The notes under the pieces: generated by a model
What the model was told of the DNA's origin: nothing
Databases searched by the model: none
The model's input: the letters and a program-made list of their open reading frames with translations, nothing else
In this document: positions 38,131 to 60,563 of the stretch, piece by piece
Layout: the number at the start of each line of letters is the position of its first letter
How positions within the stretch are numbered: position 1 is the first letter of the stretch
Made by a program: the position numbers and the translations under genes
Assembly (NCBI GenBank): GCA_001544655.2
Contig: FCOD02000028.1
Coordinates: 17,992-81,991, forward strand
Direction: 5' to 3'
Source: Caballeronia turbans
GTDB lineage: Bacteria > Pseudomonadota > Gammaproteobacteria > Burkholderiales > Burkholderiaceae
DNA length: 64,000 bases

Positions 38131-38193
38131 CGCCGCATCTCGCCATTCGAAGCACGCATCGAACGCAACGCGACTGAACGGGGCCCTCAAGCA

Positions 38194-38553: not shown

Positions 38554-38574
38554 CGGCCGCATGCGAACGACGCC

Positions 38575-39015: not shown

Positions 39016-39023
39016 AGGAATCG

Positions 39024-43701: not shown

Positions 43702-44089
43702 TCAGGGTTTCGCGAGTTCGGGGCCAGATCTCACGGCATCGAGCATCGGCTTCCTCGCGGCCGTGCGAGCGGTCGACAGACTCGTCGTCGCCAATGTCAT
43801 GGACTATGGACAAAATACATCCATCGTTCACGGTATCGTCCTTGAACGTCTGGCCGTGGTGCCACGCTGGCCGATGCTTCGTCTCACCGGCCGGGGAACC
43901 GTGCTCGACCGGCTACTTTGACTGATGCGTTACGACGCGGCGCGCATACCCGGAGTCGGCGTTTTCACCTAGCAATTCGAGGTTGACTCGGGCGGGCGCA
44001 CGTCCGAAACTTTAGTCACTCGATGTGTGATCACAGGTCACACGATACGCAGACATTGCAGCAGCCGAACGAAAGTACGGAGGCAGATT
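43702..44089. promoter_or_regulatory. Promoter/operator region of the GntR-controlled catabolic operon
   Basis: A 388-bp gap with no gene I can support. A perfect 10-bp palindrome TGTGATCACA (44026-44035) lies within a longer symmetric arrangement, GTGTGA-N7-TCACAC (44025-44043), 50 to 65 bases before the GntR start. The position suits autoregulation by the FCD-type GntR protein. The core also resembles a CRP half-site pair, but the spacing does not match a full CRP site. Confidence 0.5.
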
Positions 44090-44800
44090 GTGGCGACACG
44101 CTCGACGACGGACTTACCCGCGCTCGAATTGGTTGCACGCGAAACGATGGCCGGCCGCGTCTATGCGCAACTGAGGCAAGCGATCATGACGGGCCGCTTC
44201 GCGCCCGGACAGTTGCTGAGCCTGCGCAGCGTCGCGGAAGCAGTCGGCTCTTCGACGATGCCGGTGCGCGCCGCGCTCACGCGTCTGCAGGCGGAAGGCG
44301 CATTGATCGACGGCCCCGGCCGCGCGCTGATGGTCCCGCCGATGACGCTCGAGTTGCTCGACGAACTGCGCGACGTGCGCATCGCGCTCGAGGGCGCGGT
44401 CGCGAAGCGCGCGGCGTCGCGCATGACGCGCGCCCATCTCGAAGCATTGCAGGCGATTTTCGACACGATGGACGCCCATGTGGAAGCGGGCGACGTGCCC
44501 GCTTATCTGCGCAGCAATTTCGAGTTCCACATCGCCATCTACGCGCACGGCGCGAGCGACCTCACGCTCGCGACGATCCAGAACCTCTGGATGCGTATCG
44601 GCCCGTTCCTGAATCTCGTCGCACCCGACATTCCCCATATGCGCCGTTCGATGGCCGCGCATCGCCATATCGTCGAGGCCCTCTGGCGAGGCGACGGCGA
44701 AGGCGCGCGCGCGGGCATCGAAGAAGACATCGGCGATGCCGCCGCCGACTTGCAGGAGCGCCTGCAAAGCGGCGACATGTCGAAGGAAGCGAGCGCCTGA
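44090..44800 (+). CDS. GntR-family (FCD) transcriptional regulator
   Basis: A 236-residue GntR regulator. The winged HTH is at about residues 15-80 (RVYAQLRQAIMTGRFAPGQLLSLR segment, then VGSSTMPVRAALTRLQAEGA) and the helical FCD effector domain at about 90-225. I chose GTG 44090 because GGAGG sits six bases upstream. It opens a same-strand cluster of catabolic and transport genes (44836-55648), so it most likely controls them, with a sugar acid or pathway intermediate as ligand. Confidence 0.92.
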   Translation: MATRSTTDLPALELVARETMAGRVYAQLRQAIMTGRFAPGQLLSLRSVAEAVGSSTMPVRAALTRLQAEGALIDGPGRALMVPPMTLELLDELRDVRIALEGAVAKRAASRMTRAHLEALQAIFDTMDAHVEAGDVPAYLRSNFEFHIAIYAHGASDLTLATIQNLWMRIGPFLNLVAPDIPHMRRSMAAHRHIVEALWRGDGEGARAGIEEDIGDAAADLQERLQSGDMSKEASA

Positions 44801-44835
44801 GCTGTACCGCAACGACAACAAAAAAGGAGACATGC

Positions 44836-45642
44836 ATGACGGTTCTTCAGATGCTGAAACCGCAGGCGGGCCTGCGCGTACTCATCACGGGCGGCGCATC
44901 GGGCATCGGGCTCGTGATCGCGCGCGCGTTCATCGATGCAGGCGCGCGCGTGCACGTCTGCGATGCGAGTCCCGAGGCGATCGATGCACTGACGAAAGCC
45001 GAAGCGAGCGCGGAGTGCAACGCGATCACGTCGACGCTCGCGGACGTATCGGACAAGGATGCGGTCGAGCGCGTGTTCGCCGATGTGCAGAGCGAACTCG
45101 GCGGACTCGATGTGCTCGTGAACAACGCGGGCATCGCGGGGCCGACGGGCGGCATCGACGAACTCGACGTGAAGGAGTGGGAGCAAACCGTCGATGTCAA
45201 TCTGAACGCGCAGTTCTACTTCGCCCGCCGCGCAGTGCCGCTGCTGCGCGACGCGCACGGCGGCGGGACGATCATCGCGTTGTCATCGGTGGCGGGCCGG
45301 CTCGGCTATGCATTCCGCACGCCTTATGCCGCGACGAAGTGGGCGGTCGTCGGCATGACCAAGAGTCTTGCGATCGAACTGGGGCCGTCCAATATCCGCG
45401 TCAATGCGATACAGCCGGGCATCGTGAAAGGACCGCGCATCGAGCGCGTGATCGCCGCACGCGCGAAGCAACTGAACCTGCCGTATGAAGAGATGGAGAA
45501 GCAATATGTCGAGAAGATCTCGCTGCGCCGCATGACCACGCCCGAGGAAGTCGCGGCCACCGCGCTCTTTCTGTGCTCGCCCGCGGGCAGCGGCATCTCG
45601 GGACAGGCGATCTCGGTGTGCGGCAACGTGGAAGTCCTGTAA
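44836..45642 (+). CDS. Short-chain dehydrogenase/reductase (SDR)
   Basis: A 268-residue classical SDR. The cofactor motif is ITGGASGIGLVIA, with Asp (VCDAS) after beta-2 favouring NAD. The structural NNAGIAGP and the catalytic Ser and Tyr-x3-Lys (ALSSVAGRLGYAFRTPYAATK) are present. ATG 44836 follows AAAGGAGA. In this cluster it may oxidise a sugar or polyol at the first step, possibly to a lactone, or act on a later hydroxyl. It is followed 15 bases later by the BKACE gene. Confidence 0.9.
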   Translation: MTVLQMLKPQAGLRVLITGGASGIGLVIARAFIDAGARVHVCDASPEAIDALTKAEASAECNAITSTLADVSDKDAVERVFADVQSELGGLDVLVNNAGIAGPTGGIDELDVKEWEQTVDVNLNAQFYFARRAVPLLRDAHGGGTIIALSSVAGRLGYAFRTPYAATKWAVVGMTKSLAIELGPSNIRVNAIQPGIVKGPRIERVIAARAKQLNLPYEEMEKQYVEKISLRRMTTPEEVAATALFLCSPAGSGISGQAISVCGNVEVL

Positions 45643-45657
45643 AACAACGAGGATCAC

Positions 45658-46590
45658 ATGGCAACGAAACGCAAGGTCATCATCACATGCGCGCCGACCG
45701 GCGCGATCCATACGCCTTCGATGTCGCCGTATCTTCCGCTGACGCCGCAACAGATCGGTGATGCAGCGCTCGCAGCCGCACAGGAAGGCGCGGCGATTCT
45801 GCATCTTCACGCACGCGATCCGAACGACGGCCATCCGACGCAGGATCCCGCCGTGTTTCAGGAGTTCCTGCCGCGCATCAAGGCGAATACCGATGCCGTC
45901 ATCAACATCACGACGGGCGGCAGTCCGCACATGACCGTCGCGGAGAGATTGAAGCCGGCGCATCACTTCAAACCGGAAGTCGCGTCGCTCAACATGGGCT
46001 CGATGAACTTCGGCCTCTATCCGATGCTGGAGCGCTTCAAGGATCTCAAGTACGAGTGGGAGCGCAAGCATTTGGAGAACAGCCGCGATCTCGTGTTCAA
46101 GAACACCTTCGCGGATATCGAATACATCCTCACGTCGTGCAGCGCGAACGGCACGCGTTTCGAGTACGAGTGCTACGACATCTCGCATCTGTACAACCTC
46201 GCGCACTTCGTCGATCGCGGGCTCGCGAAGCCGCCGTTTTTCGTGCAGAGCGTGTTCGGCCTGCTCGGCGGCATCGGGCCGCATCCCGAAGATCTCGCGC
46301 ACATGAAGCGCACCGCGGATCGGCTCTTCGGCAAGGACTACGTGTGGTCGATTCTCGGCGCGGGTCGCAACCAGATTCCGCTCGGTTCGATCGGCGTCGC
46401 GCAGGGATCGAACGTGCGCGTCGGCCTCGAAGACTCGCTGTGGATCGAGCCGGGCAAGCTCGCCGAATCGAGCGCGGCGCAGGTGCGCAAGATCCGCCAG
46501 GTGATCGAAGGCCTGTCGCTCGATATCGCGACGCCCGCCGAAGCGCGCGAGATGCTCGCGCTCAAGGGCGCGAGCGACACCAATTTCTGA
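45658..46590 (+). CDS. BKACE family beta-keto acid cleavage enzyme (DUF849)
   Basis: A 310-residue TIM-barrel Zn enzyme of the BKACE family (3-keto-5-aminohexanoate cleavage enzyme, Kce). Zn-site motifs are HLHARDP near the N-terminus and the C-terminal barrel Glu region (VRVGLEDSLWIEPG). ITTGG and SLNMGSMNFG are also typical. BKACE enzymes condense a beta-keto acid with acetyl-CoA and release acetoacetate plus a new acyl-CoA. The neighbouring lambda-crystallin-type dehydrogenase would produce just such a 3-keto acid from a 3-hydroxy sugar acid. The substrate subtype is not known. Confidence 0.92.
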   Translation: MATKRKVIITCAPTGAIHTPSMSPYLPLTPQQIGDAALAAAQEGAAILHLHARDPNDGHPTQDPAVFQEFLPRIKANTDAVINITTGGSPHMTVAERLKPAHHFKPEVASLNMGSMNFGLYPMLERFKDLKYEWERKHLENSRDLVFKNTFADIEYILTSCSANGTRFEYECYDISHLYNLAHFVDRGLAKPPFFVQSVFGLLGGIGPHPEDLAHMKRTADRLFGKDYVWSILGAGRNQIPLGSIGVAQGSNVRVGLEDSLWIEPGKLAESSAAQVRKIRQVIEGLSLDIATPAEAREMLALKGASDTNF

Positions 46591-46604
46591 CGACGGAGGG
46601 CATC

Positions 46605-47378
46605 GTGAACGCGAAGCTGAAAGTAGTCGCGATGCCGACGGGCTGGCTCACCGTCGATCGCTCGTCGCAGGTGTATGGCCGCTACTTCGGCCAGCAGATG
46701 AAGGTGCCGGTGTGGTCGACGGCGATCGTCGGCGCGCAGAAGAAGATCGTCGTCGATACCGGCATTCATGATCCGGGCTGGGTCTCGAACTTCGTGTGCC
46801 CGTGCGATCAGGCGCCGGAAGAAAAGCTCGAGCGCGCGTTGAAGGAATACGTCGGCTGGAGCGCGGATGACGTCGATATCGTCATCAACACGCATCTGCA
46901 TTACGACCATTCGGGCGGCAACACGCTCTTCAAGAATGCACGTTTCATCGTGCAGGCGGCCGAGTGGGAATACGCGGGCCATCCGCTGCCGACGCAGGCC
47001 ACGTATTACCAGGAGTTCCTGATCGGCCGCGAGCCGCTCGCGTATTTTCGCTGGCAGTTCGTGAACGGCGTGACCGATATCGTGCCCGGCGTGCGCGTCG
47101 TGCCGACGCCGGGCCATACGCCGGGGCATCAGTCCGTCGCGGTCGATACGGAAGAAGGCGTCGTGCTGATCGCGGGCGATTGCGCGAACTGCATGGAGAA
47201 CATCGTCGATCTCGTGCCGGTGGGCATCGTGCATGAAACGCTCGCGGAAATCGGCTCGCTTTCGCGCATTCGCCAGATCGCCGATTTCGTCATACCCGGA
47301 CACGATCCGAACGTCGTTCCCGGCAGCGCGGGCATCGCCTTGCCTGCGAGCGCTCGCCTGCCGCACGTCCGAACCTAG
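46605..47378 (+). CDS. Metallo-beta-lactamase-fold hydrolase (AHL-lactonase-like)
   Basis: A 257-residue MBL-fold protein. The binuclear-metal motif HLHYDHSGG, then PGHTPGH, AGDCANC and IPGHD supply the ligands. It most resembles the N-acyl-homoserine-lactonase family, but in this operon a sugar-lactone substrate is at least as likely. GTG 46605 has GGAGGG five bases upstream. It encodes one of two lactonase-type enzymes in the cluster (with SMP-30). Confidence 0.85.
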   Translation: MNAKLKVVAMPTGWLTVDRSSQVYGRYFGQQMKVPVWSTAIVGAQKKIVVDTGIHDPGWVSNFVCPCDQAPEEKLERALKEYVGWSADDVDIVINTHLHYDHSGGNTLFKNARFIVQAAEWEYAGHPLPTQATYYQEFLIGREPLAYFRWQFVNGVTDIVPGVRVVPTPGHTPGHQSVAVDTEEGVVLIAGDCANCMENIVDLVPVGIVHETLAEIGSLSRIRQIADFVIPGHDPNVVPGSAGIALPASARLPHVRT

Positions 47379-47418
47379 AAGCGCCCGCTTCATAACCATA
47401 CGAAGACCGGAGGAAGAC

Positions 47419-48546
47419 ATGAAAGCATTGACGCAGTCGATTCGTCATGCGGGACGGGCCGCGCTCGGCCTCGCGTTCGCGGCGGCGCTCGCCGTCTCGG
47501 GCCAGGCGCACGCGGCCGGCAAGTACAAGATCTTCTTGTCGATGAGCTATGTCGGCAACGACTGGCAGACGGAAGCCGCGAATATGGTGAAGGCGATGGC
47601 CAACACGCCCGCGCTCAAGGACAAGGTCGATCTCGAAGTGCAGGTCGCGGGCACCGACGCGCAGAAGCAGATCCAGCAGATCAATTCGATGGTGCAGGCC
47701 GGCGCGAAGGCGATCGTCATCTATCCCATCTCGCCGACCGCGCTCAATCGGGCGATCAAGAATGCGTGCTCGAAGGGGGTCGTCGTCGCGGCGTATGACG
47801 GCGAAGTGACCGAGCCGTGCGCGCACAACGTCACGATCGATCAGCATCAGGCCGGCACCGTCACCGCCGAATGGCTCGCCAAGACGCTCAACGGCAAGGG
47901 CAACGTCGTGATGATCACGGGGGTGCCGGGCACGTCCGTGGACCGTGCGCGCACCGAAGCGGCGAAGGCCGTGTTCGCGAAGTTCCCGGGCATGAAGATC
48001 GTCGCGGAAGGCACGGGCATGTGGAGCCAGGCGACCGCGAAGACCGAGCTCTCGAAGATTCTCGCGACGAATAGCTGGGACAAGATCGACGGCCTGTGGA
48101 TGCAGGTGGGCTGCTTCACGGCCGCGTCGATGCAGCTCGAGGCGGGCATCGCCGACGACAAGATCAAGCCGTGCGCGGGCGAATCGTCGAACGGGCATCG
48201 CGTGCAGATGCTGCCGCCGGGTGAAGTGAAGGGGCAGGGCGGCTATCGCTCCATCGGCTATCGCTCGATCTCTTACGGCGCGCCGCCGTACTCCGGCGCG
48301 ATGGCGCTCAAGATGGCCGTGAAGAAGCTGGATGGCGGCGACTTTCCGCAGCGCGTGACGCTGAAGCTGCCGCTCGTGCTGACATCGGAGTCGAAGCTGT
48401 GCAAGACCGGCAGCATCGACGAGCTGAAGGCGGGCTGCACGGCGTTCCCGCCGGACAAGGTGCCGCCGGGCTGGTTCGCGGACATCTACTCGGAAGACAC
48501 GAAGGAAGTGGGCTTCAACGCGGCTCTGACAGGTAATCAGGACTGA
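47419..48546 (+). CDS. Sugar ABC transporter substrate-binding protein (ribose/autoinducer-2 type)
   Basis: A 375-residue periplasmic-binding protein of the Peripla_BP_4 class. The signal peptide is at about residues 1-33 (LAFAAALAVSGQAHA). The mature protein begins AGKYKIFLSMSYVGNDWQ and contains IQQINSMVQAGAKAIVIYP and KGVVVAAYDG, the usual RbsB-type strands. AGGAAG precedes the ATG. It should deliver a sugar, polyol or sugar acid to the ABC importer encoded by the next two genes. Confidence 0.92.
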   Translation: MKALTQSIRHAGRAALGLAFAAALAVSGQAHAAGKYKIFLSMSYVGNDWQTEAANMVKAMANTPALKDKVDLEVQVAGTDAQKQIQQINSMVQAGAKAIVIYPISPTALNRAIKNACSKGVVVAAYDGEVTEPCAHNVTIDQHQAGTVTAEWLAKTLNGKGNVVMITGVPGTSVDRARTEAAKAVFAKFPGMKIVAEGTGMWSQATAKTELSKILATNSWDKIDGLWMQVGCFTAASMQLEAGIADDKIKPCAGESSNGHRVQMLPPGEVKGQGGYRSIGYRSISYGAPPYSGAMALKMAVKKLDGGDFPQRVTLKLPLVLTSESKLCKTGSIDELKAGCTAFPPDKVPPGWFADIYSEDTKEVGFNAALTGNQD

Positions 48547-48549
48547 GGC

Positions 48550-50067
48550 ATGGCGATGAACGACGCATCACTGGCGATCGATCTGTCGAAGGTGACGAAA
48601 CGCTTCGGCGCGACCGTCGCGCTCGATGGCGCGTCGTTCTCGGTGAAACGCGGCGCCGTGCATGCGCTGCTCGGCGAGAACGGCGCGGGCAAGTCCACCA
48701 CGGTCAAGCTGTTGTCGGGATTGATGCAGCCGGACGCGGGCAGCATCCGTGTGATGGGCCGCGACGTGACGATGCGCGGCCCGAAAGACGCGCATCGCGC
48801 GGGCGTGCAGACGGCGTTTCAGGAGATGACGCTCGTGCGCGATCTCACGGTCGCGCAAAACCTGCTGATGTCGTATGAGCCGACGGGTTTTCTCGGGCGC
48901 ATCAGGAAGCGCGATGCGCAGCGGCAGGCGGCAGAATGGCTCGACAGGCTCGAACTGTCCGATGTGCGTCCGGGCGCGTATATCCGCGATCTTTCACTGC
49001 CGGTGCGGCAGAAGATCGAGATCGCGAAGGCGATCGTGCGCCGGCCGAAGGTGCTGCTGCTCGACGAACCGACTTCGGCGCTGTCGGGACGCGATGTCGC
49101 GTGGCTGTCGAGGCGCATCGACGAACTGAAGGCGAGCGACGTGACCTTCGTGTTCATCTCGCATCGGATGCAGGAAGTGCGCGAGTTCTGCGACAGTCTC
49201 ACGGTGTATCGCAATGGCCGCGACGTGGGCGCATTCGACGCCGCCGATATCTCCGATGACGAAGTGATCCGCCTCGTCATCGGCCGGTCGATGGAGGCGA
49301 AGTATCCGCCGAAGGTCGCTTCAGTGAAGCGCGACGCGACGCCCGCGATTGAGACGCGCAACGTTCGCGTCGATGGCGTCGTGACCGATTTCGATCTTGC
49401 CGTGAAGCCTGGCGAAGTGCACGGCATCGCGGCGCTGCAGGGCATGGGGCAACGCGAGCTGTTCGAAGCGCTGTTCGGCGCGACCTATATCGACGATGGC
49501 GAGATACGCATCGACGGCAAGCCGGTCACGCTGACCTGCACGGCGGATTCGCTGAAGGCCGGCGTATCGACGAGCTTCCTGCCGGAGGATCGCAAGACCG
49601 AAGGCCTGTTCCTGCGCCTGCCGGGCGGCGAGAACGTGTCCCTGCCGGTGATCGGCCGCTATACGCGCTTCGGCCTTATCGATCGAAAGCGCGAGCAGGC
49701 CGCGATACGCCGCTCGCTCGCGCAGATGGAGGTGAATCCGCGCGCGCTCTACAAGCCGTGCCTGTCGTTCTCGGGCGGCAATCAGCAGAAGATCGCGATG
49801 GCGAAATGGCTGCTCACGCAGAGCCGCGTCTGGCTCATGTTCGACCCGACGCGCGGCATCGACGTCGGTACCAAGCATCAGATCTTCGTGTTGATGCGCG
49901 CGTTCGCGGCAGCGGGCGGCTCCGTGCTGTTCTATTCGACCGATGTGCCCGAACTCGTCAACGTGTGCGATCGCGTCTCGGTGATGTATCGCGGCCGCAA
50001 TGTCGGCGAGCTGAGCGGCGATGCGCTCACCGAAGAGAACGTGATGCGCAAGATGCTTTCCAGTTGA
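48550..50067 (+). CDS. Sugar ABC transporter ATPase, dual domain (RbsA type)
   Basis: A 505-residue protein with two nucleotide-binding domains. The first has Walker A GENGAGKST and Walker B VLLLDEPTSAL, but its signature is degenerate (LSLPVRQKIEIAKAI). The second has a degenerate Walker A (LQGMGQRELF) and an intact signature (FSGGNQQKIAMAKWL), as is usual in RbsA/MglA/XylG proteins. It follows the binding protein by three bases. MAMNDASLAI is the start; ATG 48556 is possible. Confidence 0.93.
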   Translation: MAMNDASLAIDLSKVTKRFGATVALDGASFSVKRGAVHALLGENGAGKSTTVKLLSGLMQPDAGSIRVMGRDVTMRGPKDAHRAGVQTAFQEMTLVRDLTVAQNLLMSYEPTGFLGRIRKRDAQRQAAEWLDRLELSDVRPGAYIRDLSLPVRQKIEIAKAIVRRPKVLLLDEPTSALSGRDVAWLSRRIDELKASDVTFVFISHRMQEVREFCDSLTVYRNGRDVGAFDAADISDDEVIRLVIGRSMEAKYPPKVASVKRDATPAIETRNVRVDGVVTDFDLAVKPGEVHGIAALQGMGQRELFEALFGATYIDDGEIRIDGKPVTLTCTADSLKAGVSTSFLPEDRKTEGLFLRLPGGENVSLPVIGRYTRFGLIDRKREQAAIRRSLAQMEVNPRALYKPCLSFSGGNQQKIAMAKWLLTQSRVWLMFDPTRGIDVGTKHQIFVLMRAFAAAGGSVLFYSTDVPELVNVCDRVSVMYRGRNVGELSGDALTEENVMRKMLSS

Positions 50068-50077
50068 GAGGTTGCTC

Positions 50078-52177
50078 ATGAAGATAGCCGTTGCGTCGCC
50101 CGAAAGCGAGATCGTGCGGCCGGGCGCGCGCCTGGGTTGGGGCGCGCGCATCGATCATAATCGCGGGCTCATCATCGCGATCAGCGCGTTGCTCGCGATG
50201 CTCGCCGCATGGGTCGCGCTGTCCGCGACGCCCGTCGGGCTCTATGACATCGGCTCGGTGATTTCGAGCGCGACCACGCTCGCGCTCGCGGCGATCGGGC
50301 AGACGATCGTCGTGTTGTCGGGCGGCTTCGATCTGTCGGCGTCGGCGGTCGTGTCGCTCGCGAACGTGCTCGCGGTGCGCTTCGTGCAGGGGTCACCCAT
50401 CGAACAGTGGGCGGGCGCCGCGCTGATTCTCGCGATCGGCGGCGGTATCGGCCTCGTGAACGGCGCGCTGATCGCATGGTTTCGCCTGCAATCCATCGTC
50501 GTCACGCTCGCGACGATGTTCATGGTGCAAGGCCTCACGCTGCTGATTCAGAACAAGCCGGGCGGCAGCGTTGGCGATCAGTTCGGCGCGGTGCTCACGG
50601 CCGATCTCATTGCCGACAAGATGCCGATGTCGGCCGCCTTGCTGATTCTCGCGTTGCTGATCTGGTCGTTCATCAAGCGCACGCGCTTTGGCGTGGGGCT
50701 TTATGCGCTCGGAAGCGATCCTGACGGCGCGTATGCGAACGGCATGCCGGTCACGCGCTATCGCATCTCGACGTATGCGCTCGCAGGCATGTTCTACGCG
50801 GCGGCGGGCCTGTATGTATCGGCGCAGACGGGTTCGGCCGATCCGCTCGTCGGTCGTCCCTTGCTGCTTTCGATGTTCACTGCCGTCGTGCTCGGCGGCA
50901 CGCTGCTTGGCGGCGGGCGCGGCGGTTGCGTCGGCACCGTGTTCGCCGCGATGACGCTGATGATCACCGTGAACATCCTGCTCGTGCTGAACGTGTCGGC
51001 GTTCTTCACGACGATCGCTGAAGCCGTGATCCTGATGCTCGCGGTGCTCGGTTCGTCGATCGGCAAGCAGTCGGCGGCGCACGAATCCGCCCGTCATGCG
51101 GCGCAGTGGTTCAAGGCGATGCGAACGGGAACACGGGCGCGCGACGACAGAAACGCGCGACGCGTCACGTTCGAGGTCGACGATTTTCGTCCGGTCGAGA
51201 ACACGGAGTTGAAGGGCCGTCCGATCGCCGACTGGATCGAGCGCAATCGCGAATGGGTCAAATATGTCGTTCCGGCGTATCTGCTGTTCTTTGCGGTCGT
51301 CATCATCACGGGCTTCGTCTATGGTCCCGGCGTGCTCGTCAGCGCGAACTTCTACAGCAGCCTGCTCACGTTGACCTTGTTCCTCGCGATTCTCGGGCTG
51401 GGGCAGGGTGCGGTGATTCTGACGGGCGGACTCGATCTCTCGATGCCCTGGCTCATCACGCTATCCGGCGTCCTGTTGACAGGACTCACGCACGGCATGA
51501 ACGGCGCGGCCGCGTGGGCGGTGCCGATGGTGCTGCTCGTCGGGTTGCTCGTGGGCGTGTTCAACGGCGTGGGCGTCGTCATGCTCGGCTTGCCGCCCAT
51601 CGTCGTCACGCTTGCTGCGAATGGCTTGCTGCAAGGGCTGACGCTGATCTATTGCAACGGCTCGCCGCAAGGATGGTCACCCTCGTCGATCAGCGAATTC
51701 ACCAACGGTCGAGTCGGGCCGCTGTCGCTCGCGGCGTGGAGCGTGCCGGTGTTTCTCGTCGTCGCGTTGTTGCTGTTGCATCGCACGCCGTTCGGGCGGC
51801 GCGTGTATGCGCTCGGCAATTCGCCCGTCGCGGCGAAGCTCTCGGGCGTGCGCGTAGGCAACACGTTGATCGCCGTATATTGCCTCTCCGGTCTTTGCTC
51901 GGCGATCGTCGGCCTGCTGCTCGCGGGGTTCAGCTCGCAAGCGTTCCTCGGCATGGGCGATCCGTATCTGCTGCCGTCGATTGCCGTGGTCGTGGTCGGC
52001 GGCGCGCTCATCACCGGTGGACGCGGCCACTATCTCGGCGTGTTCGGCGGTGCGTTGCTGCTCACGGCGCTCGGGACCTTGCTTGCGGGAACCACCGTGC
52101 CGCCCGCGGTGCGGGACATCATCAACGGACTCGTCGTGCTGGCGGCTGTCATCACGCTGCGGGACAAGAAAGGCTGA
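50078..52177 (+). CDS. Two RbsC-type permeases fused in one polypeptide
   Basis: A 699-residue protein made of two complete RbsC-like permeases. The first is at about residues 25-335 (GGFDLSASAVVSLANVLAVR, LGGTLLGGGRGG). The second is at about 390-695 (GGLDLSMPWLITLSGVLLTG, VGGALITGGRGH). A hydrophilic linker joins them (FKAMRTGTRARDDRNARR). Each half has eight or more hydrophobic helices. RbsC permeases usually assemble as two copies of a single-domain protein or as separate genes; here both halves come from one uninterrupted frame. ATG 50078 (MKIAVASPES) is preceded by GAGAGG. Confidence 0.92.
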   Translation: MKIAVASPESEIVRPGARLGWGARIDHNRGLIIAISALLAMLAAWVALSATPVGLYDIGSVISSATTLALAAIGQTIVVLSGGFDLSASAVVSLANVLAVRFVQGSPIEQWAGAALILAIGGGIGLVNGALIAWFRLQSIVVTLATMFMVQGLTLLIQNKPGGSVGDQFGAVLTADLIADKMPMSAALLILALLIWSFIKRTRFGVGLYALGSDPDGAYANGMPVTRYRISTYALAGMFYAAAGLYVSAQTGSADPLVGRPLLLSMFTAVVLGGTLLGGGRGGCVGTVFAAMTLMITVNILLVLNVSAFFTTIAEAVILMLAVLGSSIGKQSAAHESARHAAQWFKAMRTGTRARDDRNARRVTFEVDDFRPVENTELKGRPIADWIERNREWVKYVVPAYLLFFAVVIITGFVYGPGVLVSANFYSSLLTLTLFLAILGLGQGAVILTGGLDLSMPWLITLSGVLLTGLTHGMNGAAAWAVPMVLLVGLLVGVFNGVGVVMLGLPPIVVTLAANGLLQGLTLIYCNGSPQGWSPSSISEFTNGRVGPLSLAAWSVPVFLVVALLLLHRTPFGRRVYALGNSPVAAKLSGVRVGNTLIAVYCLSGLCSAIVGLLLAGFSSQAFLGMGDPYLLPSIAVVVVGGALITGGRGHYLGVFGGALLLTALGTLLAGTTVPPAVRDIINGLVVLAAVITLRDKKG

Positions 52178-52204
52178 ACCAACTCGAATGAGGAACAGAC
52201 ACAG

Positions 52205-53149
52205 ATGCAAGCGAAGAACATTGCGGTGATCGGCTCGGGCCGCATCGGCCGCGCGTGGGCGATCGTATTCGCGAAGAGCGGTTTCGACGTGAAGATTCAC
52301 GATGCATCGAAGGACATGCTCGCGGGCGCGATTCCGTCGATCCGCGAAAGCCTGCAGGATCTCGCGTCCTTTCACCTGATCGACGAACCCGTCGATACGA
52401 TCGTCTCGCGCATCACCGCATGCGAAAGCCTGGCCGACGCCGTCGCCGATGCGGATCTCGTGCAGGAGAACATTGCGGAAGTGGTGGAAGCGAAACGCGC
52501 GTTGTTCGTCGAACTGGATCGTCTGACGAAGCCTGATGCGCTGCTTGCAAGTTCGACCTCGGGACTGCCCGCATCGACATTCACGGAGGGTATTGCAGGC
52601 CGCGCGCGCTGCCTCGTCGCGCATCCGGTCAATCCGCCTTCGCTCGTGCCGCTCGTCGAGTTGTGCGGCGCGCCGTGGACCGCGCATGAAGCGGTGGAGC
52701 GCGCCCGTGCCATCTATGAACGGGCGGGACAAAAGCCCGTGACCGTCAACGGGGAAATCTCGGGGTTCTTGCTCAATCGACTGCAAGGCGCGCTGCTCGA
52801 CGAAGCGTTGAGCCTCTATGAACAAGGCTATGCGAGCGCCGCCGATCTCGACACCGTGATTCGCGACGGCCTTGCGATGCGCTGGTCGTTCATGGGGCCG
52901 TTCGAAACGATCGACCTGAACGCGCCCGGCGGCGTGGCGGATTACGCAGCGCGCTACGGCGGCACGTATCGCACGATTGCGTCGGGGCGCACGCCGTTCG
53001 ACTGGTCCGCCGATACGCTTCACAGGCTCGATGCGGAACGCCGCGCCGTGCTGCCGCGCGAAAGCATCGAGGAACGCAGCCGCTGGCGCGATCGACGCCT
53101 GATGGCGCTGCTCGCGCACCGGCGCGATGTCAAGGACGGTGACGACTAA
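52205..53149 (+). CDS. 3-hydroxyacyl-CoA dehydrogenase family, lambda-crystallin/L-gulonate 3-dehydrogenase-like
   Basis: A 314-residue NAD-dependent dehydrogenase. The Rossmann motif is IGSGRIGRAWAIVFAKSG. The catalytic His lies in AHPVNPPSLVPLVEL, and GFLLNRLQGALLDEALSL and DGLAMRWSFMGPFETIDLNAPGG follow. The last two motifs match the CRYL1 (L-gulonate 3-dehydrogenase) and carnitine-dehydrogenase branch rather than fatty-acid FadB. Such enzymes oxidise the 3-hydroxyl of a short hydroxy acid to a 3-keto acid, which would be the substrate for the BKACE enzyme in this operon. The exact substrate is inference. Confidence 0.88.
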   Translation: MQAKNIAVIGSGRIGRAWAIVFAKSGFDVKIHDASKDMLAGAIPSIRESLQDLASFHLIDEPVDTIVSRITACESLADAVADADLVQENIAEVVEAKRALFVELDRLTKPDALLASSTSGLPASTFTEGIAGRARCLVAHPVNPPSLVPLVELCGAPWTAHEAVERARAIYERAGQKPVTVNGEISGFLLNRLQGALLDEALSLYEQGYASAADLDTVIRDGLAMRWSFMGPFETIDLNAPGGVADYAARYGGTYRTIASGRTPFDWSADTLHRLDAERRAVLPRESIEERSRWRDRRLMALLAHRRDVKDGDD

Positions 53150-53164
53150 CCAAAGGAGATGACG

Positions 53165-54067
53165 ATGGCCGAAGTACGCTTGCTGGTCGATGCGAACAAT
53201 CACCTCGGCGAAGGGCCGCTCTGGGACGTCAAGGAGGAACGCCTGTACTGGATCGACAGCACCGCCGCGGAGATCTATAGCTGCCGCGCGGATGGCAGTG
53301 ACGTAAAGCGCTATTTCGTGCCGCGTCATATCGGATCGATGGCATTGCGCGAGCAAGGCGGCGCGGTGGTCGCGCTCGCGAACGGCCTGCATTTCTACGA
53401 CTTCGACGCGCAGACTGTGCAGTTCATCGCCGATCCGGAAAGCGACGATCCCGAGACGCGTTTCAACGACGGCAAGGTGGATCGACGTGGCCGCTTCGTC
53501 GCGGGGACGATGTCCTACGATTTCGATCGCTACGACGCCGATCGCGGTCAGCGCTCCACGCGCAGCGGCGGTCTCTACCGGCTCGATACGGACGGCAGGG
53601 TCGCGCGACTCGATAGCGGCATCAGTTGTTCGAACGGTCCATGCTGGAGCCCCGACGACCAGACGTTCTACTTCACAGACACGTACAGCAAGGAGATGTA
53701 CGCATACGACTACGACATCGAAACGGGCGCGGCGACGAACAAGCGCCTCTTCGCATCCGCGCATGACATGGCGGGCACGTTCGATGGCGCGACCGTGGAC
53801 GAGGAAGGCTATGTCTGGTCCGCGCTCGTGTTCGGCGGGCGCATCCTGCGCTTTGCGCCTGACGGGAAGCTCGATCGCATCGTGCCGTTTCCGGTGCGCA
53901 ATCTGACGAGCGTGATGTTCGGCGGGCCGAATCTCGACATCCTCTATGTATCGACGATGGGCCGCCCAATGTGGGGCATTCCGCAGAAAGAGCGGGACAA
54001 GGGCGGCTTGTTCGCAGTGACGGGTCTCGGCGTGCGTGGCATTCCCGAGCCGCGTTTCGCAGGATGA
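53165..54067 (+). CDS. SMP-30/gluconolactonase family lactonase
   Basis: A 300-residue six-bladed beta-propeller lactonase. Divalent-metal ligands are in LGEGPLW (Glu), RFNDGKVD (Asn), CSNGPCWSPDD (Asn) and DGATVDEEGYVW (Asp). It hydrolyses sugar 1,4- or 1,5-lactones to aldonates. ATG 53165 (MAEVRLLV) has AAAGGAG six bases upstream, while ATG 53159 is too close to it. It sits between the dehydrogenase and the acyl-CoA ligase and fits an aldonate-forming step in the pathway. Confidence 0.92.
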   Translation: MAEVRLLVDANNHLGEGPLWDVKEERLYWIDSTAAEIYSCRADGSDVKRYFVPRHIGSMALREQGGAVVALANGLHFYDFDAQTVQFIADPESDDPETRFNDGKVDRRGRFVAGTMSYDFDRYDADRGQRSTRSGGLYRLDTDGRVARLDSGISCSNGPCWSPDDQTFYFTDTYSKEMYAYDYDIETGAATNKRLFASAHDMAGTFDGATVDEEGYVWSALVFGGRILRFAPDGKLDRIVPFPVRNLTSVMFGGPNLDILYVSTMGRPMWGIPQKERDKGGLFAVTGLGVRGIPEPRFAG

Positions 54068-54118
54068 TGCACGAGCGTTATCATGCGTGCCTGAAAGTCA
54101 CGAACGCTATCGCTCGAT

Positions 54119-55648
54119 ATGGATACGAACACGCTCATTGCGTCGCTGCCGTCGCGCATCGACGCGATCGTCTCGCGCGGCGCGAAGGCGCATCCCGATC
54201 ACATTGCGTTGCATGAAGACGCGCGGACGCTGACCTATGCGCAACTCGACGATGCCGTCGATGCGCTCGCCGCGCGTCTTGCGGCTGCGGGCGTACGAGC
54301 CGGCGACCGCGTGATGCTGACCGGCGAAAACAGCGTCGCGCTCGTCGCATCGCTCTTTGCCGTGAGCCGTCTCGACGCATGGGCGCTCGTCGCGAATGCG
54401 CGACTGTCCCCTGTCGAACTCGATGCGATCCGCGCGCATGCGACGCCGCGCATCGCCCTCTATACCGTGGAAGCATCCGACGATGCCGCGCGTCACGCGC
54501 AACGCGATGGTGCCGTGGTCGAATCGCTCGAAGCAACGCCGATCGGTGCGTTTGCGCTGAGCGCCATCGAAACGACTTCCGCGCAAGAACCGCACGGCCT
54601 GCCTTCGGACCAGCAGTGCGCGGCGCTCATCTACACGACCGGCACGACAGGCGCACCGAAAGGCGTAATGCTGTCGCATCGCAATCTGCTCTTCGTCGCC
54701 GCGGTGTCGAGCACGCTGCGCCGTGTGGGTTCCGACGATCGCGTGTATGCCGTGTTGCCGATCTCGCATGTGTTCGGTCTTGCATCCATGTGTCTCGGCT
54801 CGCTCTATGCGGGCGCGACGCTGCGGCTCGCGGCGCGCTTCGACGCCAAGCGCGCGGGACGCGTGCTCAGCGAGGAACGCATGACGATCTTTCAGGGCGT
54901 GCCCGCGATGCACGCGAAGCTGATCGATCATTTCACGCCACGCGGCGGCCTGAATGCACCCTCGCTGCGATTCGTCTATAGCGGCGGCTCGCCGCTCGAC
55001 ACGACACTCAAGTCCGCTGCCGAAGCGTTTTACGGCGTGCCCTTGCACAACGGTTACGGCATGACAGAAAGCAGCCCGACGGTGTCGAACACGCTGCTCG
55101 ATGCGCCGGCGCGCGATTCGTCCGTGGGCCCGTTGATTCCCGGCGTCGAGGCGCGCATCGTGCCGCTCGCGCGTGAGAGCGAGAGCGACGACACCGGCGA
55201 ACTATGGGTGCGCGGCCCGAACGTGATGCTCGGCTATTACCGTGATGCGGTGCAAACGGCCGCCACGGTGACGACGGACGGATGGCTCAAGACCGGCGAT
55301 CTCGCGCACTTCGAGGACGGCAATCTGTATATCGTCGGACGCAGCAAGGAGCTCATCATCCGTTCGGGCTTCAATGTGCATCCCGCCGAAGTGGAGCAGG
55401 CGTTCAACAGTCATCCCGCCGTGCTGCATTCCGCCGTGATCGGGCGAAGCGCGCGGGGCAACGAGGACGTGCTCGCGTTCGTCGAACTGAGGCCAGGCTG
55501 CACGGCGGATGAAGACGAACTCGCTCAGTGGGTGAGCGCTCGGCTCGCGCCGTACAAGCGGCCTTCCTCGATCCGCATTCTCGGTGCGCTGCCGGTGTCG
55601 GCGAGCGGCAAGGTGCTCAAGCATCGGCTCGGGACGCTCGCTAATTAG
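54119..55648 (+). CDS. Acyl-CoA synthetase (AMP-binding, class I adenylating enzyme)
   Basis: A 509-residue acyl-CoA ligase. Core motifs are LIYTTGTTGAPKGVMLSH (P-loop), YGMTESSP, DGWLKTGDLA and the C-terminal catalytic Lys in SASGKVLKHR. It is the last gene of the cluster, 51 bases after the lactonase. It could activate acetoacetate or the organic acid left by BKACE cleavage, or a substrate carboxylate. It resembles long- or medium-chain ligases in length, but the acyl specificity is not readable. It overlaps the convergent efflux gene by eight bases. Confidence 0.9.
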   Translation: MDTNTLIASLPSRIDAIVSRGAKAHPDHIALHEDARTLTYAQLDDAVDALAARLAAAGVRAGDRVMLTGENSVALVASLFAVSRLDAWALVANARLSPVELDAIRAHATPRIALYTVEASDDAARHAQRDGAVVESLEATPIGAFALSAIETTSAQEPHGLPSDQQCAALIYTTGTTGAPKGVMLSHRNLLFVAAVSSTLRRVGSDDRVYAVLPISHVFGLASMCLGSLYAGATLRLAARFDAKRAGRVLSEERMTIFQGVPAMHAKLIDHFTPRGGLNAPSLRFVYSGGSPLDTTLKSAAEAFYGVPLHNGYGMTESSPTVSNTLLDAPARDSSVGPLIPGVEARIVPLARESESDDTGELWVRGPNVMLGYYRDAVQTAATVTTDGWLKTGDLAHFEDGNLYIVGRSKELIIRSGFNVHPAEVEQAFNSHPAVLHSAVIGRSARGNEDVLAFVELRPGCTADEDELAQWVSARLAPYKRPSSIRILGALPVSASGKVLKHRLGTLAN

Positions 55649-57077
55649 TCGATGCAACCGGTTTGATCGCAGCTTTCGTGTCCTCGCCGGCGCCGCCTAG
55701 CGACTGAAAGAGCGCGGCCGTATCAGACAGGCGGCTCGCTTGCGCGAGCGCGTAATCGAGTTGCGTTTGCAGCGCCTGGCGTTGCGTGTCGAGCAAATCG
55801 AAACGGCTCACGCCGCCTGCCGCATACCGCGCGTTGTTGGTATCGAGATTCGCTTGCGCCTGGTTTGCTGCTACGCGGCGCGCTTGCAATGCATCGCCAT
55901 CGTTCTGCAGCGCCGTCAGGCTGTCGGCGACTTGCTGAAGCGCGTCCAGCACGGTTTGTCGATAGGCTTGCATGGCTGCATCGTAAGCCGCTTCCGACGA
56001 ACGCTTCTTCGCGCGCAGTTCGCCACCATGAAACAGCGGCTGCGTGAGATTCAGGCCGACATTCCATACGTTCAGGCTATTGAGCATGTCGTGGATGTTC
56101 GTGCGCTGGGTTCCCACGCCCGCCGAAAGCGAGAACTTCGGATAGAGATCGGCCGTGGCCACGCCGACATTCGCGCTCGCCTGATGCAGCAACGCTTCCG
56201 ATGCACGGATGTCGGGACGTTCGCGGGCGAGCGTCGAAGGCAGCGTGAGCGGAACGCTGTCTGGCAGACGCAGCGAGTCGAGCGTGATCGCATCGAAGTC
56301 GGCGACGGAAGGCTCGACGCCGATCAATACCGCAAGCCGGTGATCGGCCTGATCGCGTTGCGTGACGAGCGATGGCAGATTCGCGCGCGTCTGCTCGACG
56401 AGCGTGCGCTGGCTGCGCACATCGAACAGCGCGACGCCGCCCGCTTGCAGTCGGCCTTCCATGATCGACAGTTGCCGCATCTGTGCATCGACGAGGCGCT
56501 CGGTAAGCGTGATCTGTTGCTGCACTGAAGCGCGCCGGATCGCGGCGGCGACGACATTGCCCGCGATCGAGAGACGCGCCGCATCGAGTTCGAAGGACTG
56601 GTAGTCCACTTGCGCGCGCAACGCTTCGAGCGCCCGCCGCTCGCCGCCGAAGATATCGAGCGTGTACGACACGCTGACCGATGCATCGTAGAGCGTGAAG
56701 GGGCCGGGGCTCGGAATGGGCACGCCGAACGCGGCCGGGTCCACCTTCTGGCGCGTGCCGGAGACCGAGGCGTCGATGGCGGGGAAGTACGTCGCGCCCG
56801 CTTGCGCGCGGTAGTCTTCACGCGCTTGCACGAGCTTCGCACGGGCTTGCTCGAGCGTGGGACTGTCGCTCAATGCGCGATCGACGAGGCGGTTTAGCGC
56901 ATCCGAGCCGAACTGCGTCCACCAGCGCGGCAACGCGTGATCAATGGCGGGAAAGCTTTGCGCCGCGACAGTCGTTTTGACATAGGTCTGCGTAGCGGGG
57001 GGCGCGGGCGCGTGAAAGTCGGGGCCGACAGTGCAGCCGCACAGCACGAGCACACAAAGCGGAAGAAGCGGTTTCAT
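55641..57077 (-). CDS. Efflux outer-membrane lipoprotein, NodT family
   Basis: A 478-residue outer-membrane factor (TolC fold). The N-terminus MKPLLPLCVLVLCGCTVGPD has a lipobox (LCGC, Cys15) and the typical TVGPDF. Two OEP repeats follow (about residues 60-260 and 270-465), each with long coiled-coil helices. ATG 57077 is the lipoprotein start. It is the distal gene of a four-gene leftward efflux operon (HlyD, ATPase, permease, outer-membrane factor), completing an envelope-spanning exporter. Confidence 0.93.
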   Translation of the reverse strand: MKPLLPLCVLVLCGCTVGPDFHAPAPPATQTYVKTTVAAQSFPAIDHALPRWWTQFGSDALNRLVDRALSDSPTLEQARAKLVQAREDYRAQAGATYFPAIDASVSGTRQKVDPAAFGVPIPSPGPFTLYDASVSVSYTLDIFGGERRALEALRAQVDYQSFELDAARLSIAGNVVAAAIRRASVQQQITLTERLVDAQMRQLSIMEGRLQAGGVALFDVRSQRTLVEQTRANLPSLVTQRDQADHRLAVLIGVEPSVADFDAITLDSLRLPDSVPLTLPSTLARERPDIRASEALLHQASANVGVATADLYPKFSLSAGVGTQRTNIHDMLNSLNVWNVGLNLTQPLFHGGELRAKKRSSEAAYDAAMQAYRQTVLDALQQVADSLTALQNDGDALQARRVAANQAQANLDTNNARYAAGGVSRFDLLDTQRQALQTQLDYALAQASRLSDTAALFQSLGGAGEDTKAAIKPVASTN

Positions 57078-57087
57078 CGACGTCTCC

Positions 57088-58248
57088 CTAATCGAGCGTG
57101 CGCCGGTAGAAGCGCAGCGCAATACCCATCACGATGACGGTGAAGAGGACCATCGGCCAGACCGAAGGCCACAGGTCCGCCCAGCCGTTGCCCTTGAGCA
57201 GAATGCCGCGTATCAGGCGATTGAAGTAAGTGAGCGGCAGCAGATTGCCGATGAACTGGGCCCACGCGGGCATGCCCGCGAATGGAAACATGAAGCCCGA
57301 AAGCAGAATGTTCGGCAGGAAGTAGAACATGGTCAGTTGCATCGCCTGAAGCTGATTCTGCGCGAGCGACGACAGCGTGATGCCCACCGTCAGATTCGCG
57401 GCGATGAACAGCAGCGCGGCGAGGTAGATTGCGAGCGGATTGCCGACGAGCGGCACATGAAACACGAAGCGCGTGGCCGCGAGAATGATCGATGCCTGAA
57501 TGAGGCCGATGAATACGTAGGGCACGATCTTGCCCGTCATCACTTCGACGGGGCGCACCGGTGTCGCGAGCAGGTTCTCCATCGTGCCGCGTTCGCGTTC
57601 GCGTGTCATCGCAAGGCCTGTCATCATCACGAGCGTCATCGTGAGGATCACGCCCATCAGGCCAGGCACGACGTTGTATTGCGTGATGCCTTCGGGGTTA
57701 TAGAGGTTGTGGATCTGCACGTCGAAAGCGGCGGGCGTGCCGTTCAAGCGCGCGAGCGGGCCGGTGAGGTCCTTGCTTGCCACGGATTGCACGAGCGCTG
57801 ACAGTGAATTGCTCGCTTTGCTGACCGCGTTTGGATCGGTGGCGTCGGCTTCGACGAGCAGCGCTGGCCGCTCGCCGCGCAACAGCTTGCGCGAGAAATC
57901 GGCTGGAATGCTGAGCACGAAAAGCACGCGGCCTTGTGCGAGCGCGCGGCGGCCGGCTTCGTCGTCGGGCAGCGTGTCGACGATATCGAAGTAGTCGGAG
58001 TGCTCCATCGCAGCGATGAAGCTGCGCGAAAACGGGCTTTGATCGCCGACGATCACGGCGGTGGGCAGATGCTTCGGGTCCGTGTTGATCGCGTAACCGA
58101 AGAGCGCGAGCTGCACGATCGGCAAGCCGATGATCATGCCGAATGTGATGCGGTCGCGCCGAAGCTGCAGAAACTCCTTGATCACAATGCTCCACCAGCG
58201 CGTGACGGAGAAGCGCGCGAAGAGCGCGATGCGATCGCCGGCCTTCAT
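57088..58248 (-). CDS. ABC-2 type efflux permease (YhhJ/YbhR-like)
   Basis: A 386-residue permease. One N-terminal helix (about residues 20-50, with IKEFLQLRRDR before it) is followed by a large periplasmic domain (about 55-180), then five helices with ALTMTLVMMTGLAMTRERERGTMENLLATP, the conserved ABC-2 coupling segment. The fold matches YhhJ/YbhR permeases, which work with HlyD partners. Only one such permease is present, so it presumably acts as a homodimer. It overlaps the ATPase gene by four bases. Confidence 0.9.
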   Translation of the reverse strand: MKAGDRIALFARFSVTRWWSIVIKEFLQLRRDRITFGMIIGLPIVQLALFGYAINTDPKHLPTAVIVGDQSPFSRSFIAAMEHSDYFDIVDTLPDDEAGRRALAQGRVLFVLSIPADFSRKLLRGERPALLVEADATDPNAVSKASNSLSALVQSVASKDLTGPLARLNGTPAAFDVQIHNLYNPEGITQYNVVPGLMGVILTMTLVMMTGLAMTRERERGTMENLLATPVRPVEVMTGKIVPYVFIGLIQASIILAATRFVFHVPLVGNPLAIYLAALLFIAANLTVGITLSSLAQNQLQAMQLTMFYFLPNILLSGFMFPFAGMPAWAQFIGNLLPLTYFNRLIRGILLKGNGWADLWPSVWPMVLFTVIVMGIALRFYRRTLD

Positions 58249-60142: not shown

Positions 60143-60176
60143 GGCGTACTCCATGATCAGGTTGTCTTTCATTTGG

Positions 60177-60188
60177 TTGGTCTACCAA
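60177..60188. promoter_or_regulatory. Palindrome at the efflux operon start (possible TetR-type operator)
   Basis: TTGGT-CT-ACCAA is a perfect palindrome 35 bases upstream of the HlyD start, embedded in an AT-rich stretch (GTTTATTGTTTGG on the minus strand). TetR-family efflux repressors use sites like this, and YbhGFSR-type operons usually have a TetR gene in front. None is present here; the rest of the gap to 60563 holds no gene I can support. Confidence 0.5.
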
Positions 60189-60563
60189 ACAATAAACGAG
60201 GCGCTTGGTTGCTGTCAATCGGAGCGCGCCTGGGGCCCGCGCTTCGGCGTTCAAGACAAGGATAGAAGAGGACTGCGTCGGCAAGGCGTCTGCCGAATGA
60301 AAGCGGGGAACGGGCGCTCGGAGCGATGGATTCGTACGCTCGGTCACGAACCGGTAGCGAGGAAGTAAATACCGGCAAGTCGCATGGACGGTATGAGTAA
60401 AAATGACACGCGGGATGTGCTTCCATTCTCGTGCGTGCGCTACTTCGTGTATCGAAATCCAGTCTGGCAGGACAAGTCCACCTTTGCGCGTGCTGTGCAT
60501 TCGCATTACATTGCGATATCCGCGTGACTCGAATCGATACCGATAAAAAAAGGAGACGCCAAG

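Follow-up and report, generated by a model that had tools for sequence, protein, structure and literature searches.

A ten-gene cluster of Caballeronia turbans that probably encodes an ABC-importer variant of the oxidative deoxyribonate pathway

Introduction

An oxidative pathway for deoxyribonate has been published for Pseudomonas simiae WCS417, with uncertain natural substrates and with transport by MFS proteins (Price et al. 2019; PMC6365646). Here we analyse a related cluster at positions 44090 to 55648 of a 64-kb stretch of Caballeronia turbans DNA (contig FCOD02000028.1, positions 17,992 to 81,991; hereafter the window), which is probably a variant of that pathway equipped with its own importer, the substrate and its stereochemistry being deduced from sequence and by analogy. 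In P. simiae, the cluster (PS417_07240-07265) consists of genes for a GntR regulator, a short-chain dehydrogenase/reductase (SDR), a beta-keto acid cleavage enzyme (BKACE), a lactonase and two MFS transporters, and a glycerate kinase is encoded elsewhere in the genome (PMC6365646). The SDR converted deoxyribonate in vitro to a ketodeoxyribonate, the keto position of which was not determined in that account, and it was inactive on deoxyribose; mutants in the SDR and BKACE genes did not grow on deoxyribonate (PMC6365646). Positions −47 to −40 of the P. simiae GntR gene form the palindrome GTGATCAC, which recurs at similar positions in homologues; the motif was derived by comparing other Pseudomonas and Burkholderia graminis, in which a similar cluster is present (PMC6365646). 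The same source describes an AraC-type deoxyribonate cluster in Paraburkholderia bryophila and Burkholderia phytofirmans, reported there to be without a close homologue of the P. simiae lactonase, and an acyl-CoA route for deoxyribonate in Klebsiella michiganensis (PMC6365646).

The cluster in the window resembles that of P. simiae in that GntR, SDR, BKACE and lactonase genes are grouped, GTGATCAC lies upstream of the GntR gene, and a glycerate kinase is encoded elsewhere in the genome. It differs in having an ABC importer with a fused permease rather than two MFS proteins, and it carries in addition a 3-hydroxy acid dehydrogenase (HADH) of the lambda-crystallin type, an MBL-fold hydrolase and, in some strains, an acyl-CoA ligase. 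With the AraC-type clusters it shares the grouping of SDR, BKACE, transporter and second dehydrogenase, but those clusters have an AraC regulator and no ABC importer, and in an example found in the C. turbans genome itself the second dehydrogenase is FabG-like and the BKACE only 60% identical. Compared by description alone, the K. michiganensis route is alike in that CoA-synthetase-type and beta-hydroxyacyl-CoA dehydrogenase genes are clustered with a lactonase gene (PMC6365646); the window differs from it in that BKACE is present and that no thiolase or CoA-transferase is found among the ten genes.

An initial annotation of this DNA had known of no described pathway with exactly this set of enzymes. 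The same logic was, however, published for deoxyribonate, with the gene order GntR, SDR, BKACE, lactonase and the same operator (PMC6365646). The core of the pathway is already known; what is new is the ABC-importer form and the second dehydrogenase. Our literature search, which covered preprints only through PMC, found no description of an ABC-importer version.

Results

Ten genes, each separated from the next by 3 to 51 nt, occupy the plus strand between 44090 and 55648, and the gene calls are correct. Domains were assigned with Pfam and NCBIfam profiles at their curated cut-offs, which verified all ten genes and, with them, the operon of importer, SDR, MBL-fold enzyme, SMP-30, lambda-crystallin-type enzyme, BKACE and ligase that the initial annotation had described. 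The gene for the GntR/FCD-family regulator (44090..44800, GTG start; Pfam FCD 91 bits, GntR 58 bits) is followed by those for the SDR, a probable 2-deoxyaldonate (deoxyribonate-type) 3-dehydrogenase (44836..45642; Pfam adh_short_C2 198 bits), BKACE (45658..46590; PF05853 356 bits against a cut-off of 24.8), and the MBL-fold hydrolase, a lactonase or thioesterase (46605..47378, GTG start; PF00753, HxHxDH present). The importer is encoded next, as a periplasmic sugar-type binding protein (47419..48546; PF13407, Peripla_BP_4, 176 bits), a CUT2-like ABC ATPase with two ATPase domains (48550..50067; PF00005 in two stretches) and a fused CUT2-like permease of 701 aa (50072..52177; two BPD_transp_2 stretches in Pfam). 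HADH (52205..53149; Pfam 3HCDH) and an SMP-30 lactonase (SMP-30/SGL; 53159..54067; PF08450 270 bits) complete the common part of the cluster, and an AMP-forming acyl-CoA ligase (54119..55648; PF00501 282 bits) forms its strain-dependent end.

To relate the cluster to the published one, a Pseudomonas-family set of 298 genomes, anchored on a genome (G162) with a PrrF RNA over its cut-off, was searched for BKACE. Homologues at E <= 1e-60 were found in 23 of the 298 genomes, at 27 places, and the neighbourhoods of 16 of these 27 places were taken. Five of the 16 loci (L146-L150) have the published layout, with GTGATCAC 40-47 nt upstream of the GntR gene, and in all five the position of the lactonase is occupied by an SMP-30 gene, the counterpart of the one in the window. 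The two transporter genes of L146 matched MFS models, below the curated cut-offs, and those of L147-L150 were labelled by sequence clustering with L146. The proteins of the window are 45-46% (GntR), 58-59% (SDR), 70% (BKACE) and 48-49% (SMP-30) identical to those of the five loci.

We also examined BKACE loci in named genomes. A BKACE-similarity search found 245 relatives, of which the best 80 were kept, giving 79 loci; these are largely orthologous, such that the counts are not independent events, and gene counts were based on tblastn because the open reading frame caller misses genes that overlap longer spurious frames. Of the 79 loci, 38 preserve the whole nine-gene order GntR-SDR-BKACE-MBL-binding protein-ATPase-permease-HADH-SMP-30, and 10 of the 38 have the ligase in addition; they belong to Caballeronia, Paraburkholderia and strains named Burkholderia. 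Thus, the gene set is a conserved unit and not a chance assembly. The MBL and binding-protein genes occurred in 41 loci, each time both, and the dehydrogenases were distributed as SDR plus HADH in 45 loci, SDR only in 23, HADH only in two and neither in nine. The window BKACE is 99% identical to those of C. sp. INDeC2 and C. novacaledonica. P. graminis C4D1M (L019) has the nine-gene cluster type of the window, and its locus is probably the cluster compared by Price et al. Reduced forms were seen as well: SDR-BKACE-HADH-ligase without importer or lactonases (L002, L018), GntR-SDR-BKACE-HADH (L011), BKACE-HADH alone (L021), and GntR-SDR-BKACE with SMP-30 matched only as two separate pieces (L068).

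The palindrome GTGATCAC, a putative GntR operator, lies at 44027..44034, upstream of the GntR gene. This is the single match in the window, against 1.06 expected, and therefore its occurrence alone is not significant; what counts is its fixed place, which was found within 200 nt upstream of the GntR gene in 71 of 72 GntR-bearing loci (the exception being L065), where about 0.005-0.016 per locus would be expected. Because this position is conserved, the GntR regulator would be expected to work through GTGATCAC.

The importer, SDR, HADH, BKACE and SMP-30 genes recur in a different order on plasmids of Phyllobacterium, Rhizobium and Agrobacterium, the binding protein being 61-64% and the fused permease 51-52% identical to those of the window. 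With the Agrobacterium binding protein as the sole query, matches were obtained in five of 398 genomes of the phylum (the window's own, one of the same genus and three outside the class) and in seven of 276 genomes in the family of one of the three outside-class genomes, one of the seven having already been counted; the module is therefore rare, even in that family. This gave nine further genomes outside the window's class, probably alphaproteobacterial, and in their neighbourhoods SMP-30 was present in nine of nine, HADH and SDR in eight each, and BKACE in seven. A weaker second match to the binding protein, in G740 (41%), lies outside this set of neighbourhoods. Since the same module is found in two classes with different gene order, there is good evidence at the sequence level that importer, SDR, HADH, BKACE and SMP-30 work together. 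One of the modules (L194) consists of importer and SMP-30 only, its SDR match being 34%, and another (L197) is without BKACE, which argues that substrate brought in by this importer can also meet a different fate. Across the 12 rhizobial-type modules examined, the binding protein is 59-67% identical to that of the window and the permease is matched over its full length at 49-54% identity. GTGATCAC lies between the GntR gene and divergent importer genes in L195 and L196; it was not found in the stretches of L170, L171, L172, L190, L191 and L194, and is located elsewhere in the remaining modules.

The rhizobial versions provide candidates for steps that would follow BKACE. On pRlX3 of Rhizobium ruizarguesonis (CP140871.1, L201), the module is followed by genes for a chemoreceptor, a LarA homologue, LarC, LarE, LarB, a glycerate kinase and a hydrolase, and the run resumes past one oppositely oriented regulator gene with CoA-transferase A and B and a thiolase. 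LarB, LarC, LarE, both CoA-transferase subunits and the thiolase (TIGR01930) exceeded their cut-offs, as did the hydrolase (445 against 274), which matches the NCBIfam model for 3-hydroxyisobutyryl-CoA hydrolase (HIBCH). The LarA homologue was under every listed racemase cut-off (340 against 460), and the glycerate kinase, the call of which rests on annotation, was under two glycerate 2-kinase equivalog cut-offs (257 against 550); its counterpart in Agrobacterium, 82.6% identical, exceeded the Pfam cut-offs for MOFRL and DUF4147. The module of Agrobacterium Q15/94 (L172) likewise encodes an HIBCH-type hydrolase (426 against 274), which is 67.8% identical to that of pRlX3. In both plasmids the module ends with the glycerate kinase gene next to the HIBCH-type gene, whose product is a candidate glyceryl-CoA hydrolase (L201, 3700-6070; L172, 12406-14798). 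The LarA homologue with LarB, LarC and LarE (L201, 6101-10138) is located between the BKACE module and the glycerate kinase and is possibly a glycerate racemase. The methyl-accepting chemotaxis protein gene, directly 3' of SMP-30 in both (L172, 9960-12269; L201, 10284-12593), may encode a sensor of the substrate. A more distant hydrolase of the HIBCH family (37-40% identical) is encoded beside SMP-30 and SDR in L195 and L196, and in the fetched stretches of the 12 modules HIBCH-type hydrolases were found in four and the LarA system in one. Glyceryl-CoA differs from 3-hydroxyisobutyryl-CoA in that a hydroxyl replaces the methyl group at C2, and for this reason the HIBCH-type family is, by analogy, a sound candidate for the glyceryl-CoA hydrolase, an enzyme that PMC9007349 names as unknown. 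Two other HIBCH-type relatives (51-53% identical) are located in apparent valine operons, and thus the candidate may instead have a role in valine metabolism.

In the C. turbans genome, functions for the last steps are encoded on other contigs. A GarK-type glycerate kinase (PF02595 393 bits) was detected on contig C50 and two 3-oxoacid CoA-transferase A homologues over the TIGR02429 cut-off on contig C15, and deoC is present; a MOFRL-type glycerate kinase was looked for in this genome and not found.

The SDR retains the catalytic N, S, Y and K in 99 of 99 homologues. The initial annotation had given the 3-oxidation to the lambda-crystallin-type enzyme and sugar oxidation to the SDR. Neither assignment is favoured by the published pathway, in which the SDR oxidises the acid and was inactive on the sugar (PMC6365646): the window SDR need not be a sugar 1-dehydrogenase. 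Because the SDR is the more constant partner of BKACE, and because its published relative is a deoxyribonate dehydrogenase, 3-oxidation is most likely carried out by the SDR rather than by HADH. The contrary arrangement would be a new aldonate pathway in which the SDR serves as a sugar 1-dehydrogenase, both lactonases hydrolyse the lactone and the 3-keto aldonate cleaved by BKACE comes from HADH alone. The sugar-type importer, the two lactonase folds and the lambda-crystallin-type enzyme would all suit such a pathway, as would the two of 79 loci with HADH and BKACE but no SDR. We nevertheless consider it improbable, as the closest layouts use the SDR as a deoxyribonate dehydrogenase, and BKACE is accompanied by SDR but not HADH in 23 of the 79 loci and in 12 of the 16 Pseudomonas-family loci (one of the 16 has neither). 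A C2-hydroxyl would also be unusual in a BKACE substrate; judged from the known substrate type of these enzymes, a 2-deoxyaldonate, with CH2 at C2, or its lactone is chemically more likely to be the substrate than the plain aldonate that had been suggested at first.

BKACE retains His49, His51, Arg254, Glu258 and Asp259 in 120 of 120 homologues, and its nearest solved relative is 3e49. Several observations, most of them on BKACE, weigh against deoxyribonate as the substrate or against the pathway as proposed. The NCBIfam model that it exceeds, NF053538 (557 bits against 430), is named 3,5-dioxohexanoate:acetyl-CoA acetone transferase and not for deoxyribonate. Ten of 164 plasmid records with BKACE homologues were picked by hand, and in six of the ten neither an SDR nor an HADH of the window kind is nearby; given that the same holds for nine of the 79 loci, the BKACE subfamily serves several pathways. 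Likewise, among ten HADH neighbourhoods picked by hand from 45 plasmid records, BKACE adjoins HADH in six and does not in four. The main doubt comes from the same genome, where contig C54 (L144) carries a GntR-SDR-BKACE-MFS cluster whose BKACE is 89% identical to that of the window, and contig C51 (L145) carries AraC, BKACE (60%), a transporter gene, a FabG-like SDR and an SDR (60%) in the P. bryophila-type layout. Three BKACE clusters in one genome argue for different, related acids, and deoxyribonate may be handled by the C51 and C54 clusters, with a different substrate for the cluster in the window. Further points are that no glycerate kinase is found among the ten genes, that a MOFRL-type kinase was found in only two of the 12 rhizobial-type modules (in the fetched stretches, other kinase types not being searched for), that the sameness of the five Pseudomonas-family loci and the P. 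simiae cluster, including the SMP-30 nature of its lactonase, is something we infer from layout and operator spacing, and that the proposed scheme gives no firm role to the MBL enzyme or the ligase.

Taken at its word, the name of NF053538 would suggest a non-sugar hydroxy-lactone as the substrate, for example 3,5-dihydroxyhexanoate or a triacetate-type lactone. The lactonases would suit a lactone of this kind and the score is over the cut-off, but the glycerate kinase in two rhizobial modules points to a three-carbon glyceryl product and the binding protein is of the sugar type; we therefore give this possibility slightly less credence than the aldonate pathway.

HADH exceeds the cut-off of NF004783 (PRK06129; 445 bits against 347), the family name of which, 3-hydroxyacyl-CoA dehydrogenase, does not settle whether the substrate is a free acid or a CoA ester. 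Its nearest solved structures are the lambda-crystallins 3ado and 3f3s (212 and 205 bits by phmmer), six other listed relatives scoring 97-110 bits. It shares with L-gulonate 3-dehydrogenase/lambda-crystallin the nearly full-length 3HCDH fold, the catalytic Ser, His, Glu and Asn, and the Arg in an MR(Y/W) segment, and differs in that the similarity to 3ado and 3f3s is moderate and that it is a member of the bacterial PRK06129 family. Ser117, His140, Glu152, Asn191 and Arg226 are unchanged in 70 of 70 homologues. Arg226, which we take to be the binder of the substrate carboxylate, lies in a segment that is common to lambda-crystallin and absent from two aligned acyl-CoA-dehydrogenase-type chains. 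Since the lambda-crystallins are closest and this segment is shared with them, HADH looks like a free-acid dehydrogenase, and here the initial annotation is borne out. The shared segment speaks against an acyl-CoA route as in K. michiganensis, in which the ligase would activate the hydroxy acid and HADH would act on the CoA ester. Although the ligase was always accompanied by HADH (12 of 12 ligase loci among the 79) and such a route was described by Price et al. (PMC6365646), 35 of 47 HADH loci have no ligase, the cluster has no thiolase, BKACE uses the free acid, and the P. bryophila-type cluster of the same genome has a FabG-like second dehydrogenase and not one of the HADH kind. We regard this route as quite unlikely. 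Degradation of a carnitine-like quaternary amine can be dismissed almost entirely: 3HCDH-type dehydrogenases are paired with BKACE in carnitine pathways, but the carnitine dehydrogenase models were far under their cut-offs (NF005716, 177 against 592; NF005471, 162 against 414), and neither the lactonases nor the sugar-type importer fits.

HADH is a real partner of BKACE: the two genes are neighbours in the Pseudomonas family (L152, L153, L155), Castellaniella, Lautropia, Sagittula, Cereibacter, Microvirga and others, at times without the SDR. The 3HCDH-type enzymes, such as 3-hydroxyacyl-CoA, L-gulonate and L-carnitine dehydrogenases, generally act on an L-configured 3-hydroxyl, and many hydroxybutyrate-type SDRs on a D-configured one. 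The C3 hydroxyl of 2-deoxy-D-ribonate is D-configured, in keeping with oxidation by the SDR; the opposite C3 epimer would then fall to HADH, and both enzymes would deliver the same 3-keto acid to BKACE. We rejected an equation of HADH with the second dehydrogenase of P. bryophila, because on C51, in a cluster of the same layout, a FabG-like SDR takes this place (FabG model 302 against 296). A gene of the altronate/galactarate-dehydratase family lies near the HADH-BKACE pairs of L152 (8683-10209), L153 (8539-10065) and a Comamonadaceae plasmid, L163 (3978-5504), which suggests that this branch serves a different hydroxy acid. In Mesorhizobium ciceri pMc1284 (L164, 6096-7930), a gene annotated as N-acyl homoserine lactonase family is located directly 5' of an HADH homologue (53%), in a sugar ABC cluster with no BKACE nearby; this lactonase-family gene gave no match to the window MBL.

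The fused permease and the GTGATCAC palindrome are details absent from the initial annotation, in which the importer was called ribose-type. The best NCBIfam models for the ATPase are monosaccharide importer ATPases, none of the 25 models listed being exceeded, and the ribose importer equivalogs were not reached (RbsA model 376 against 745, RbsB model 34 against 337). In SMP-30, E18, N103, N159 and D209, presumably the metal ligands as judged from SMP-30 structures, are unchanged in 60 of 60 homologues. The MBL enzyme, although AiiA-like, is below the cut-off for AiiA-type N-acyl homoserine lactonases (NF045699, 131 against 375), and 41 of 41 orthologues have Asn or Ser at the position aligned to an AiiA Tyr that we take to be an active-site residue. 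Nothing close to it was found outside the cluster in 369 genomes of the class, the own genome included (best match by E-value 38%, shorter matches up to 54%), and in the named collections close matches were confined to the cluster's own relatives (four plasmid records, all Caballeronia). We considered the MBL enzyme as the counterpart of the P. simiae lactonase, since the order GntR-SDR-BKACE-lactonase is the same, and dropped this assignment because SMP-30 takes that place in the Pseudomonas-family loci and the 369 genomes gave no close MBL elsewhere. Its lack of the AiiA Tyr and its position after BKACE would have suited a glyceryl-CoA hydrolase; this idea is weakened by its tie to the importer (41 of 41 loci) and by the lack of any MBL match (E <= 1e-15) in the 12 rhizobial-type modules. 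It may be a thioesterase, or else a lactonase dedicated to a particular lactone. The ligase reaches the cut-off of none of the 25 NCBIfam models listed, and in the 10 of 29 plasmid records listed its relatives from outside the cluster do not exceed 51% identity; that it reactivates acetoacetate is a guess.

The flanking genes look unrelated to the cluster. Upstream (37021-43701) are genes for an RsbRD_N/STAS protein, an HATPase-SpoIIE protein and a PAS hybrid histidine kinase, a group reminiscent of stress regulation by partner switching, and downstream (55641-62987) are genes for an outer-membrane efflux protein, an ABC-2 permease, an ABC ATPase and HlyD on the minus strand, after which a penicillin-amidase family gene (807 aa) lies on the plus strand.

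Discussion

The proposal of an oxidative deoxyribonate pathway in a variant with its own importer rests on the published layout and operator in L146-L150, the placement of GTGATCAC in nearly all GntR-bearing loci, the P. graminis locus, the glycerate kinase, CoA-transferase and deoC of the same genome, and the outside-class and rhizobial modules. The ABC importer would take in a 2-deoxyaldonate, as such or as the lactone; the likeliest substrates are of the 2-deoxypentonate type, for instance 2-deoxy-D-ribonate or deoxyribonolactone. The lactone would be opened by SMP-30, and possibly also by the MBL enzyme, and the SDR, by analogy with that of P. simiae, would oxidise C3 to give the 3-keto acid. 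HADH, as another 3-hydroxy acid dehydrogenase, would contribute to this step, probably by accepting the opposite C3 configuration. BKACE would convert the 3-keto acid and acetyl-CoA to acetoacetate and a short hydroxyacyl-CoA, expected to be glyceryl-CoA, which would be hydrolysed and the product phosphorylated by glycerate kinase, while acetoacetate would be reactivated; genes for these last steps would lie elsewhere in the C. turbans genome and within the cluster in Rhizobium. Expression would be governed by the GntR regulator acting on the cluster via GTGATCAC. The sequence of import, lactone hydrolysis, 3-oxidation to a 3-keto acid and BKACE cleavage that the initial annotation envisaged is, in our judgement, right.

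One could envisage, more tentatively, a system in which the preferences of SDR and HADH for opposite C3 configurations allow one BKACE to serve both C3 epimers of 2-deoxypentonates, the LarA-type nickel racemase of Rhizobium neutralises the configuration at C4 once this carbon is in glycerate, and the HIBCH-type enzyme is the glyceryl-CoA hydrolase. If this rather unlikely combination were true, the cluster family would clear all stereoisomers of a class of sugar acids, for example acids and lactones arising from oxidised DNA and sugars. The chemoreceptor gene that follows the module in two rhizobial plasmids, of Rhizobium and Agrobacterium, suggests that the compound matters near plants. The cluster family offers a dedicated importer with a measurable ligand and a second dehydrogenase that poses a clear stereochemical question, and its rhizobial versions offer concrete candidates for the missing hydrolase and, on one plasmid, also for glycerate racemisation and acetoacetate reactivation.

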